Shown here piece by piece: positions 47,424-51,936 of a stretch of DNA of 64,000 bases. The stretch is from Acidobacteriota bacterium. Lineage in GTDB: Bacteria; Acidobacteriota; Holophagae; Holophagales; Holophagaceae. The stretch covers positions 124,001 through 188,000 of the forward strand of contig JACQZU010000019.1 of assembly GCA_016213735.1 (NCBI GenBank), given 5' to 3'. How positions within the stretch are numbered: the stretch's first letter is position 1; every line of letters begins with the position of its first letter. The notes beneath the pieces are model-generated. The model was not told where the DNA came from. It saw only the letters and a program-made list of their open reading frames with translations, and did no database searches. A program made the translations under genes and the position numbers.

Positions 47424-47467
47424 GGGAACTTCCGCCCGGGGTCGAGGGCCCGGCCCGAAAAAACACT

Positions 47468-47495
47468 TAAAGATCTCCGGGCCCCTTGCCGAACA
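47468..47495 (+). promoter_or_regulatory. Sigma-28 (FliA)-like promoter, flagellin 1
   Basis: TAAAGATC (47468-47475), 12 bases, GCCGAACA (47488-47495), against the FliA consensus TAAAGTTT-N11-GCCGATAA. The predicted start is about 47502, giving a leader of about 73 bases. The GCCGAA box lies 87 bases before the ATG, almost the same distance as in the second flagellin gene (86). Confidence 0.7.
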
Positions 47496-47534: not shown

Positions 47535-47567
47535 GACAGCACGGATGCTGTCTGTACGCATCACGGA
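47535..47567 (+). promoter_or_regulatory. Conserved flagellin leader hairpin with two ACGGA sites (candidate CsrA targets), copy 1
   Basis: gacagcacggatgctgtc (47535-47552) is a perfect 6-bp stem with hexaloop ACGGAT. A second ACGGA (47563-47567) overlaps the GGAGG ribosome-binding site of the ATG at 47575. ANGGA in a hairpin loop and ANGGA at the Shine-Dalgarno are the hallmarks of CsrA-repressed leaders, as known for Bacillus hag. CsrA binding is an inference. The arrangement is repeated with the same spacing before the second flagellin gene. Confidence 0.6.
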
Positions 47568-47574
47568 GGATGCA

Positions 47575-48303
47575 ATGCCTAGTATTCTCAATAATGTCGC
47601 GGCCCTTGGAGCCACCCGCCAGCTGGGGATCACCAACCTGGGCCTGCAGCGCACCATCGAGCGTCTGACCACGGGCAAGCGGATCAACCGCGCCAACGAC
47701 GACGCCGCCGGCCTGTCCATCGCGAACAGCCTCGGGGCTTCCGTCCGCGTGGAAACCCAGGCCCGGCGCAATGCCAATGACGGCTACTTCCAGCTCCAGA
47801 CCATGGACGGCTACCTGGAAGAGGCCACCCAGCTGGCCACCCGCGCCGCCGAGCTGGAGTCCGCTTATAAAGGCGCCAATGCCGCGGGCCAGACGGCCAT
47901 CAACGCGGAATACACCCAGATCGGGGCCGCCCTGACCGCCATCGACGGCCAGCGCGCCACTGTCACCGCCGACGCCGGGGCCTACGGCACCGTCACCGCC
48001 ACCAAGACCGCCCTCACCGCCCTGGCGGGCAGCGCGGCGGCGGGGAATTCCGCCACGGTCCTCACCAACATCGCCACGGAGCGAGGCAATTACGGGGCCT
48101 ACATGGCCCAGCTCAGCAGTTACGCCAACGTCCTGGGCATTTCTTCCGAAAACAAGACCGCCCAGAGAAGCCAGATCATGGACGCCGACGTGGGCACCGA
48201 AGTGGTGAACCTCTCCAAGTGGCAGATCCTGAACCAGAGCGGTATCAGCGCCTTGGCCCAGGCCAACTCCGCCGGCCAGGCGGTCCTGGCCCTCCTCCGG
48301 TAA
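47575..48303 (+). CDS. Flagellin, short form (copy 1)
   Basis: A 242-residue filament subunit. The N-terminal D0/D1 helix region is canonical (MPSILNNVAALGATRQLG, TTGKRINRANDDAAGLSIA). The C-terminal D1/D0 region contains ENKTAQRSQIMDADVGTEV and ends ANSAGQAVLALLR. Only about 80 residues lie between, so D2/D3 outer domains are absent. ATG 47575 follows CACGGAGGATGCA. An in-frame ATG ten codons upstream lies in the leader hairpin and would add MLSVRITEDA; the canonical N-terminus argues against it. Terminator downstream. Confidence 0.96.
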   Translation: MPSILNNVAALGATRQLGITNLGLQRTIERLTTGKRINRANDDAAGLSIANSLGASVRVETQARRNANDGYFQLQTMDGYLEEATQLATRAAELESAYKGANAAGQTAINAEYTQIGAALTAIDGQRATVTADAGAYGTVTATKTALTALAGSAAAGNSATVLTNIATERGNYGAYMAQLSSYANVLGISSENKTAQRSQIMDADVGTEVVNLSKWQILNQSGISALAQANSAGQAVLALLR

Positions 48304-48325
48304 TCCGGGTGGGCTGTTTTTTCTG

Positions 48326-48349
48326 GGGGCCGGGAAACCGGCCCCTTTT
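48326..48349 (+). terminator. Rho-independent terminator after flagellin 1
   Basis: A perfect 8-bp stem GGGGCCGG / CCGGCCCC with a GAAA tetraloop (48326-48345) is followed by TTTT. It lies 22 bases after the flagellin stop and separates the two flagellin transcripts. Confidence 0.85.
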
Positions 48350-48441
48350 GGCGTCCAGGAAGGACTCTGCCCCCTTCCCGCGTTCCCCCGGGTCCCGGCC
48401 CCCGATGCCCCAACCGGCGCGCTGATTTCCCATTTCGGGCT

Positions 48442-48468
48442 TCAGGTTTGCCGGAGATCTGCCGAATA
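48442..48468 (+). promoter_or_regulatory. Sigma-28 (FliA)-like promoter, flagellin 2
   Basis: TCAGGTTT (48442-48449), 11 bases, GCCGAATA (48461-48468), each box matching 6 of 8 consensus positions. Predicted start near 48475. The 11-base spacer matches the FliA consensus, whereas copy 1 has 12. Confidence 0.7.
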
Positions 48469-48506
48469 GATTGAGGTCGGGGAGCGCCACCCGGCACCCG
48501 AACCAG

Positions 48507-48539
48507 GACAGCACGGATGCTGTCTTCACGCATCACGGA
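48507..48539 (+). promoter_or_regulatory. Conserved flagellin leader hairpin with two ACGGA sites (candidate CsrA targets), copy 2
   Basis: The same 18-base hairpin gacagcacggatgctgtc occupies 48507-48524, with loop ACGGA at 48513-48517. A second ACGGA (48535-48539) overlaps the ribosome-binding site. The distance between the two sites is 22 bases, as in copy 1. The upstream non-coding sequences otherwise differ, so this element has been selectively kept or recently duplicated. Confidence 0.6.
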
Positions 48540-48546
48540 GGATGCA

Positions 48547-49275
48547 ATGCCTAGTATTCTCAATAACGTCGCGGCCCTCGGCGCCACCCGGCAGCTGGGG
48601 ATCACCAACCTGGGCCTCCAGCGGACCATCGAGCGCCTGACGACCGGCAAACGGATCAACAGGGCCAACGACGATGCCGCCGGCCTGTCCATCGCGAACA
48701 GTCTGACGGCCAGCGTCCGGGTGGATACCCAGGCCCGGCGCAACGCCAACGACGGCTACTTCCAGCTGCAGACCATGGACGGCTACCTTGAGGAGGCCAC
48801 GCAGTTGGCCACCCGGGCGGCCGAACTGGAGTCCGCCTACAAGGGCGCCAACGGCGCCGGCCAGACCGCCATCGACGCGGAATACGCGCAGATCAAGACC
48901 GCGCTCTCCGCCATCGACGGCCAGCGGGCGACGGTGGCCTCGGACGCCGGCGCCTATGGCACCGTCACCGCCACCAAGACGGCCCTCACCGCCCTCAGCA
49001 CCACCGCCGCCACCGGCAACGCCGGCACGGTTCTCGGTGACATCGCCACCGAGCGCGGGAAGTACGGGGCCTACATGTCCCAGCTTTCGAGCTACGCCAA
49101 CGTCCTCGGCATCGCCGCGGAGAACAAGACAGCCCAGGCGAGCCAGATCATGGACGCCGACGTCGGAACGGAGGTGGTGAATCTTTCCAAGTGGCAGATT
49201 CTGAACCAGAGCGGCATCAGCGCGCTGGCCCAGGCCAACTCCGCGGGTCAGGCAGTCCTGGCCCTCCTCCGGTAA
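48547..49275 (+). CDS. Flagellin, short form (copy 2)
   Basis: A 242-residue flagellin that differs from copy 1 at about 23 positions, nearly all in the central ~100 residues (for example EYAQIKTALSAI, STTAATGNAGTV). The terminal D0/D1 helices are almost identical. It has its own sigma-28-like promoter, leader hairpin and ribosome-binding site. It begins 243 bases after copy 1 and precedes flaG-fliD-fliS. Both probably polymerise into the filament outside the cell. Confidence 0.96.
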   Translation: MPSILNNVAALGATRQLGITNLGLQRTIERLTTGKRINRANDDAAGLSIANSLTASVRVDTQARRNANDGYFQLQTMDGYLEEATQLATRAAELESAYKGANGAGQTAIDAEYAQIKTALSAIDGQRATVASDAGAYGTVTATKTALTALSTTAATGNAGTVLGDIATERGKYGAYMSQLSSYANVLGIAAENKTAQASQIMDADVGTEVVNLSKWQILNQSGISALAQANSAGQAVLALLR

Positions 49276-49760: not shown

Positions 49761-51461
49761 ATGGCATCCGCAGTCAGCTTCCAGGGGCTCTCGTCCGGCA
49801 TCCAGACGGACCAACTCGTGGCCGCGATCCTCCAATCGGAGAGCGGCACCCTGAACCGCCTGCAGGACCGCCAGACCCGCAACACGCTGCGGACCACGGC
49901 ACTCACCTCCCTCAAGACCAACATGACCCTGCTGGCGAGCAGCCTGGCCAGCCTGAGCAACACGAGCTTCGACGCCCGCAGCGTCTCCAGCACGGATGCC
50001 AACGGTACCTACGCCACGGCCACCGCCGCCGGGGCCGCTGCGGGCACCTACGACCTCCAGGTCGCCCGGGTGGCCACCAAGGGACGGATCTCGCCGACCC
50101 TGGACCTGGCCGGAAACCCGACGAATCTCGCCGTCGCCGACCCCCTCGCCACCCCGGTATTCACCGGGGCCTCCGCCACCTTCGCGGTCCAGGGCACGGA
50201 CGGCACCATCAAGACCCTCACCCTCGGGGCAGGCAGCAACAGCCTGAACGGATTGAGGGATGCCATCAACTCCTCCGGTGCAGGGGTGGTGGCCACGGTG
50301 GTCAACACCGGAAAGGCCGTGAACCCCTACCAGCTCGTGGTGACGGCCAAGGACACGGGCACGGGGACCACCGGGGGCCTGGTCACGCTGGCCGACGTCA
50401 CGGCCGGGGGCGCGGTCAACACCCTGGGAATCACCGCCGGAACGGTGAATGACCTGGTGAATCCCACCACCCTCACCGGGGGCCTCCAGTCCGCCACCGC
50501 GGCGGTGGACGCTCTCTTCACCCTCAACGGGATCGAGCTCACCCGCAAGAGCAACGTGGTGACGGACGCCGTGGAGGGCATGACCATCACCCTGAAACAG
50601 GGAAACCAGACCGGGACCACCACCTTTACCGTGGCCCAGGACAAGGGCGCGGTGACTACCGCACTCCAGGACGTCATCAGCAAATTCAACGCCCTCCTCC
50701 AGGCCTACAAGAACGGCGCGGCGGTGACCACGGACAGCTCCGGGAACAAGAAGCCGGGGGTGTTCACGGGGGACTCCCAGACCCGGGGCCTCCTTGAGAA
50801 GATCCGGGGCGCCCTCACGGGGGTCCCCGCGGGCCTTCCCGGAACGGCGCCCTTCCAGGGGACCGCGGACCTGGGGATCAAAACCAACCCCGACGGAACC
50901 CTCTCCCTGGACGTGACCAAATTCCAGGCCGCCCTGGACCAGGACCCGGCCGCGGTGAAGCGGATCTTCGCCTTCACGGGAAGCAGCACCAACAGTGCGG
51001 TCTCCTTCGCCTCCGGGGGCGCCGCGACGGTGACCGGGGACGTGGCCTTCGACATCACCAGCTACACTCCAGGGGGGAGCGTCTCCGGGACCTTCACGGT
51101 CGGCGGGGTCCCCTATTCCCTGACCGGGACCAACGGGGTGCTCCAGGGAGGGTCCGGAACCCCCCTGGAGGGGCTCATCCTCAACGTCCAGGGGACCGGG
51201 ACGGGGACCCTGACCCTCACCCGCGGGGTGGCCCAGGCCGCCCGGGACGCGGTCTCCGAGATCACCACGGCCGTGACCGGCAGCATGTCCAAGGCCCTCC
51301 AGCGGATCTCGGACGACAATCGGGCCCTGTCGGACCAGATCTACACGCAGCAACAGCGCCTGGCCAAGCGCAAGGAGTTTCTCCAGGCGGAATTCTCGCG
51401 GATGGAATCGGTGATCAGCCAGCTCCAGTCCGCGGGTTCCAGCTTGACCAACCTCGGCTGA
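49761..51461 (+). CDS. fliD: Flagellar cap protein FliD
   Basis: A 566-residue filament cap that folds flagellin at the growing tip. The N-terminus is typical (SFQGLSSGIQTDQLVAAILQ). The body has Ala/Gly/Thr-rich strand segments, including LGAGSNSLNGLRDAINSSGAGV. The C-terminal coiled coil (DQIYTQQQRLAKRKEFLQAE) is followed by FSRMESVISQLQSAGSSL, the conserved FliD end. Length is within the family range. Starts 24 bases after flaG. Confidence 0.95.
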   Translation: MASAVSFQGLSSGIQTDQLVAAILQSESGTLNRLQDRQTRNTLRTTALTSLKTNMTLLASSLASLSNTSFDARSVSSTDANGTYATATAAGAAAGTYDLQVARVATKGRISPTLDLAGNPTNLAVADPLATPVFTGASATFAVQGTDGTIKTLTLGAGSNSLNGLRDAINSSGAGVVATVVNTGKAVNPYQLVVTAKDTGTGTTGGLVTLADVTAGGAVNTLGITAGTVNDLVNPTTLTGGLQSATAAVDALFTLNGIELTRKSNVVTDAVEGMTITLKQGNQTGTTTFTVAQDKGAVTTALQDVISKFNALLQAYKNGAAVTTDSSGNKKPGVFTGDSQTRGLLEKIRGALTGVPAGLPGTAPFQGTADLGIKTNPDGTLSLDVTKFQAALDQDPAAVKRIFAFTGSSTNSAVSFASGGAATVTGDVAFDITSYTPGGSVSGTFTVGGVPYSLTGTNGVLQGGSGTPLEGLILNVQGTGTGTLTLTRGVAQAARDAVSEITTAVTGSMSKALQRISDDNRALSDQIYTQQQRLAKRKEFLQAEFSRMESVISQLQSAGSSLTNLG

Positions 51462-51507: not shown

Positions 51508-51936
51508 ATGACTCCCCCCACCAAGGCCACCGACCAGTACCTCGCCCAGCGGGTGGCCGGAGCCTCCCCCGAGGAGCTCCACGCCATGCTCCTGGAGGCT
51601 GGCCAGCGGTACCTGGGCAAGGCCATCCGGTCGATCCAGCGGAAAGATCTGGCCGCCAAGACCCAGGAGCTGAACCGGGTGCTCAGCATCATCGAGGAAC
51701 TCACCGTCCGCCTGAACCTGGACCAGGGAGGGGACCTGGTGATGAACCTGGTCCGGATCTACGAATGGTGGAACCGGGAGATCCTGCAGGCGAGCATGAG
51801 CCTCGAAACGGCCCCCCTTGAACGGGTCAGCCGTTTCATGGGCGAGATGCGCCAGACCTGGATGACCCTGCACCAACAGCGGTGCGCGGTGGCCTCCGAA
51901 CCTGCCGCGAGCCTTGCCGCGGACCTCGCGGGGTGA
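51508..51936 (+). CDS. fliS: Flagellin export chaperone FliS
   Basis: A 142-residue helical chaperone that binds the flagellin C-terminus in the cytoplasm. Features: DQYLAQRVAGASPEELHAML, a helix AGQRYLGKAIRSIQRKD, ELTVRLNLDQGGDLVMNLV, and YEWWNREILQASMS where classical FliS has Y-x-Y/W-x3-L. It is followed by a second FliS-like gene of the same length. Confidence 0.88.
   Translation: MTPPTKATDQYLAQRVAGASPEELHAMLLEAGQRYLGKAIRSIQRKDLAAKTQELNRVLSIIEELTVRLNLDQGGDLVMNLVRIYEWWNREILQASMSLETAPLERVSRFMGEMRQTWMTLHQQRCAVASEPAASLAADLAG

Follow-up and report, generated by a model that had tools for sequence, protein, structure and literature searches.

Two flagellin leaders with a double hairpin

Two tandem flagellin genes in the window, the 64 kb stretch of Acidobacteriota DNA analysed here, are preceded by the same short hairpin, raising the question of what the shared leader does and why it has stayed alike. 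The features of the locus are as follows.

47467..47495, plus strand: sigma-28-type promoter of flagellin 1 (TTAAAG ... GCCGAACA), from sequence; TTAAAG/CCGAA are equally placed in most related leaders
47535..47552, plus strand: SL1 of flagellin 1, putative CsrA site 1, from sequence and covariation among relatives
47558..47573, plus strand: SL2 of flagellin 1 with the Shine-Dalgarno sequence in its loop, putative CsrA site 2, from sequence and covariation among relatives
47575..48303, plus strand: flagellin 1, 242 aa, with Flagellin_N and Flagellin_C
48441..48468, plus strand: sigma-28-type promoter of flagellin 2 (TTCAGGTTT ... GCCGAATA), from sequence and the pattern in relatives
48507..48524, plus strand: SL1 of flagellin 2, putative CsrA site 1, from sequence
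48530..48545, plus strand: SL2 of flagellin 2 with the Shine-Dalgarno sequence in its loop, putative CsrA site 2, from sequence
48547..49275, plus strand: flagellin 2, 242 aa, paralogue of flagellin 1, with Flagellin_N and Flagellin_C, from domains and protein identity
49344..49736, plus strand: flaG, the next gene, by domain match
49761..51461, plus strand: fliD, filament cap, by domain match
51508..51936, plus strand: fliS, flagellin chaperone, by domain match

The first-pass annotation had described an identical perfect hairpin with the loop ACGGAT in each flagellin leader and a second ACGGA over the Shine-Dalgarno sequence 22 bases further on. Both are present at both sites. SL1 reads GACAGC[ACGGAT]GCTGTC (loop in brackets), with the first ACGGA starting at 47541 and 48513. 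The second ACGGA starts at 47563 and 48535, giving a loop-to-loop distance of exactly 22 nt in each leader, and lies 12 nt ahead of the ATG start codons at 47575 and 48547. The proposed architecture, ANGGA in a loop plus ANGGA over the Shine-Dalgarno sequence, thus stands but was incomplete: the second site is itself held in a perfect hairpin, SL2 (GCATC[ACGGAG]GATGC), whose loop is the Shine-Dalgarno sequence (ACGGAGG) of both genes. The whole element covers 43 nt (47535-47577 and 48507-48549). A hairpin scan of the window found no comparable pair upstream of the flaG start, and an Rfam scan of the 64 kb gave no family match at the gathering score.

Each leader therefore has two GGA sites, one overlapping the Shine-Dalgarno sequence, and a flagellin gene follows in both window copies, as expected of flagellin leaders controlled by CsrA and FliW. 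The other hallmarks are GGA displayed in an ANGGA(N) hairpin loop, found across 57 leaders with two exceptions and with N variable, and csrA and fliW in the same genome, where both were found. Judging from its sequence and from analogous systems, the hairpin pair almost certainly binds the repressor CsrA.

Chance, gene duplication and selection

Hairpins with an ANGGAN hexaloop and a perfect stem of at least 5 bp number seven on both strands of the 64 kb window, against a mean of 1.13 in Markov-shuffled windows. Two pairs of such hairpins within 40 nt were found in the real window, both at flagellin starts, versus none in 30 shuffled windows. The remaining three hairpins do not lie at gene starts. 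A chance origin of the window's hairpin pairs is excluded. Genome-wide counts were obtained by covariance-model and pattern searches. Over the 3.59 Mb genome the covariance model scored only the two flagellin sites above background (62.5 and 61.7 bits, the next at 23), and the pattern CATCANGGAGGRTGN{0,2}ATG occurred solely at the two flagellin starts.

Could the match between the leaders be a mere residue of recent gene duplication or gene conversion? The genes are tandem paralogues with 90% amino-acid identity, and their first ten codons are nearly identical as well. However, the 43-nt element is identical between copies at 40 of 43 positions, compared with 78 of 125 four-fold sites (62%) in the genes (p = 5e-5, Fisher's test), and the DNA 5' of it is unrelated (21 of 77 positions identical, ungapped). 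The earlier statement that the sequence is otherwise unrelated holds upstream of the element and fails for the genes. Its companion, that the element looks selectively conserved, agrees with these counts, which point to an element kept by selection, with local gene conversion as the less simple alternative. Since the same element with covarying stems is found in some 50 other genomes, duplication is excluded as a sufficient cause, and we regard a mere residue as highly improbable.

Conservation and covariation across Holophagaceae

The nearest named matches of the locus, Geothrix and Holophagaceae, put the genome in an acidobacterial family, as the first-pass annotation had supposed, and related flagellin loci were drawn from that family. 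A covariance-model search found the double hairpin in 51 of 77 Holophagaceae genomes, one of which (G037) has it only before a small-protein gene. The element is not peculiar to this gene pair but is family-wide in sequence comparison. Among 57 aligned flagellin leaders, the first loop shows ANGGA in 56, as ACGGAT, ACGGAC, AAGGAT, AAGGAC, ATGGAT or ACGGAA, the exception being one CAGGAT. The second loop shows ANGGAG in all but one, which has a single-base gap, as ACGGAG, AAGGAG, ATGGAG or AGGGAG. The N of ANGGA is thus free to be C, A, T or G. The invariant loop letters are those read by CsrA, which does not require the variable one, and ANGGAN is the hexaloop of RsmE-RNA structures (reviewed in PMC7652899).

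Stem positions were paired in 98.5% of cells across the 57 leaders. Compensatory changes affecting both sides were seen at 7 of the 11 stem pairs, in 44 cells compared with 11.3 in shuffles, and none of 500 shuffles scored as high; alignment A3 was fitted to the structure, a point counted against the best explanation. When 22 leaders were aligned with no structure model, the consensus fold consisted of both hairpins, with covariation at four pairs (15 cells versus 3.7). The relatives' leaders, to which the first-pass annotation had pointed as a check, accordingly keep both ANGGA loops on stems with compensatory changes. Tandem flagellin arrays in two genomes (L087 and L107, in G041 and G049; three genes in L087) have an element of their own before each gene. 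Their stems are the most diverged of all, yet still compensated.

Outside Holophagaceae, a phylum-wide search returned only three weak matches, two of which are not flagellin starts. The other, in a distant acidobacterium (L091; G079:C180:28194-28245; 31.9 bits), is a true flagellin start that keeps SL1 as CGCGGC[ACGGAT]GCCGCG, followed by AGGGAGG before the start codon and with a weak SL2. This sequence is a hint that the layout may be older than Holophagaceae.

Promoters and flagellins without the element

Element leaders mostly lie behind sigma-28-type sites (TTAAAG...CCGAA), the exception being the inner genes of tandem arrays, and SL1 starts some 20-45 bp past the -10. This arrangement bears on whether the inverted repeats instead act at the DNA level, as operators bound by a transcription factor that controls flagellar genes, a reading that palindromic arms near promoters might suggest. 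In the leaders the arms covary whilst the asymmetric loops stay fixed, the reverse of operator behaviour, and one copy always ends beside the start codon and contains the Shine-Dalgarno sequence. The distance of the first site from the -10 also speaks against an operator, a reading we consider extremely unlikely.

Flagellin loci without the element differ in their promoters. A sigma-54-type site (TGGCAC-N5-(A/T)TGC) lies within 200 nt in five of six such loci, two of which (L003 and L035) are very alike, compared with none of 62 element leaders. The third flagellin of the window's genome (C15:195209) belongs here, having a sigma-54-type site and no element. The flaB gene of C. jejuni is a sigma-54 flagellin gene. 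The combination of a sigma-28 flagellin that carries the double hairpin and a sigma-54 flagellin that lacks it is reminiscent of the flaA/flaB pair of C. jejuni (for flaA, PMC4894983).

A GC-rich hairpin 5' of SL1 is common in relatives (mean z of -1.6 against shuffles). It was rejected as a component of the switch, since genus g11 lacks it and the window shows only a weak version.

csrA and fliW accompany the flagellins

The genome contains one csrA (E = 5e-21) and one fliW (E = 1e-33). The two are adjacent, with fliW directly upstream, and share a contig with the flagellins at a distance of about 155 kb, so the pair of genes that the first-pass annotation made decisive is there. Among solved structures, CsrA is matched best by the CsrA chain of entry 5dmb, a FliW-CsrA complex. 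The protein retains the MLVITR start and a VHRRE stretch with R44, a critical RNA-binding residue of CsrA (PMC7652899), and is extended at its C-terminus. FliW in turn matches chain A of 5dmb, the FliW chain. By similarity to this complex, FliW is predicted to act as a partner switch that binds both CsrA and flagellin.

In 48 good-quality Holophagaceae genomes, the element was present in 31 of the 33 that encode csrA and absent from all 15 that do not (p = 1e-10). The losses of csrA, fliW and flagellin coincide, however, so on these counts a link to CsrA cannot be told apart from a link to flagella. Across the family the three are present or absent together (csrA/fliW table 53, 0, 1, 23). On this distribution, CsrA seems bound up with the flagellum in Holophagaceae.

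Single-domain FliW is found in the window's genome and in nearly all of genus g3. Two other genomes (G064 and G065; L085 and L086) encode a FliW-FliW tandem fusion of about 260 aa, with two Pfam FliW stretches, directly before csrA. Tandem FliW also occurs in genera g4, g7, g9, g10 and g11. No paper on tandem FliW was found in our literature search.

Proposed mechanism and a competing fold

From the sequence and known systems, it is very probable that CsrA bound across SL1 and SL2 shuts out the ribosome, that FliW lifts this block by taking up CsrA, and that flagellin feeds back via FliW. The leader, transcribed from its sigma-28-type promoter, would offer two CsrA sites as ANGGA hexaloops on short stems. 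A CsrA dimer would use SL1 as anchor site and SL2, with its Shine-Dalgarno loop, as blocking site, keeping the 30S subunit off and so repressing both flagellins together. Binding of CsrA by FliW would free the leaders. Cytoplasmic flagellin would compete for FliW, such that unexported flagellin piling up would re-arm repression and flagellin would be made only when needed. The evidence in hand comprises the covarying hairpins, their conserved ANGGA, csrA and fliW in the genome and the co-occurrence across the family. CsrA binding, translational repression and the partner switch between FliW and flagellin we infer from C. jejuni and B. subtilis, with comparative evidence behind the first step, the bridging of the two hairpins by CsrA.

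Folding with 36 nt of coding sequence included gave a competing structure. In both window leaders, SL2 is predicted to give way to pairing of GAGGAUGC with GUAUUCUC in codons 3-5, at mean probabilities of 0.88 and 0.96 for this Shine-Dalgarno-codon pairing. SL2 had a mean probability of 0.52 over 55 leaders in single-sequence folds. As the codon pairing outcompetes SL2 in the window predictions, SL2 may need CsrA for its capture. In these models, CsrA may pick SL2 from an equilibrium of the two folds, or the Shine-Dalgarno-codon helix may be a second, protein-free brake.

Another possibility is that SL2 and this helix form a protein-free translational switch, responding for instance to temperature or ribosome occupancy, with SL1 as a 5' stabiliser. 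The two pairings are mutually exclusive and of similar predicted weight. Moreover, 46 of 54 element genes have ATT as the Ile codon directly behind the start, compared with ATT at 51 of 695 Ile codons elsewhere in them, and ATC CTC, the perfect anti-Shine-Dalgarno to GAGGAT, never follows the start in these genes, so pairing there seems constrained (in the window, 47575-47600 and 48547-48570). We considered the fixed ATT codon as a possible third element on this sequence pattern. However, the codon is also found in an element-less flagellin (L003), and a protein-free switch gives no reason for the SL1 loop to keep ANGGA while its stem varies and leaves the link to csrA and fliW unexplained. 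We judge it unlikely as the main explanation, and continue to favour repression by CsrA released by FliW.

A possible wider regulon

The double hairpin also precedes orphan genes for small proteins in six genomes (L073, L074, L079, L080, L081 and L082, in G043, G018, G031, G047, G069 and G037, respectively). These proteins have 36-86 aa, most start with MS.I.G(V/L)S, and a CCGAT/CCGAA (sigma-28-like) box lies upstream of their genes. They had no Pfam match and their gene neighbourhoods differ. These sequence features make the genes candidate additional members of the CsrA-controlled flagellar set. GGA has been lost from the first loop in L075, L076, L078 and L082.

It is possible, if somewhat short of an even chance, that Holophagaceae CsrA is a dedicated flagellar regulator with a tiny regulon of sigma-28 flagellins and orphan small proteins, lost with the flagella, that sigma-54 flagellins escape it, and that several genera place it under FliW-FliW control.

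Comparison with known systems

Acidobacteria appear in one survey as a phylum that may use FliW (PMC4682653). Our literature search found no relevant paper on Geothrix flagellin regulation and no description of this flagellin switch in Holophagaceae. The flagellin checkpoint by CsrA and FliW, familiar from Firmicutes and Campylobacterota, is now placed in Acidobacteriota as well by strong comparative evidence. The covariance model lets CsrA targets be sought in a group with little experimental genetics.

The precedent first named was hag of Bacillus. In B. subtilis, the CsrA sites of hag were demonstrated by binding and mutants (Yakhnin 2007, Mukherjee 2011, reviewed in PMC7652899). Shared with hag are two CsrA sites, putative here, in a flagellin leader, one over the Shine-Dalgarno sequence, and FliW as predicted CsrA antagonist. 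The type of switch first assigned is supported, but both sites here lie in ANGGA hexaloops with family-wide covariation and, because the Shine-Dalgarno site is also in a hairpin, the nearest precedent is C. jejuni flaA. There, footprints and mutants established two ANGGA stem-loops, of which the second covers the ribosome-binding site (Dugar et al. 2016, PMC4894983), and relatives likewise show compensatory changes. Both systems serve a major flagellin with sigma-28 transcription and a short leader, with fliW in the genome. Differences from flaA are the phylum, the presence of the element on two adjacent genes, a longer leader (an estimated 70-75 nt versus 45 nt), the 5' GC hairpin of most relatives and the adjacency of csrA and fliW; the Holophagaceae switch is also one predicted from sequence. 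Finding nearly the same two-hairpin layout in Acidobacteriota makes its age and mobility testable. Each single site also resembles the RsmE/RsmA sites of Pseudomonas hcnA in its ANGGAN hexaloop and stem-loop form, whilst hcnA is of a different gene class and its type of control works through sRNAs, not FliW. The proposed switch is of a known kind, here followed through a whole family, the Holophagaceae.
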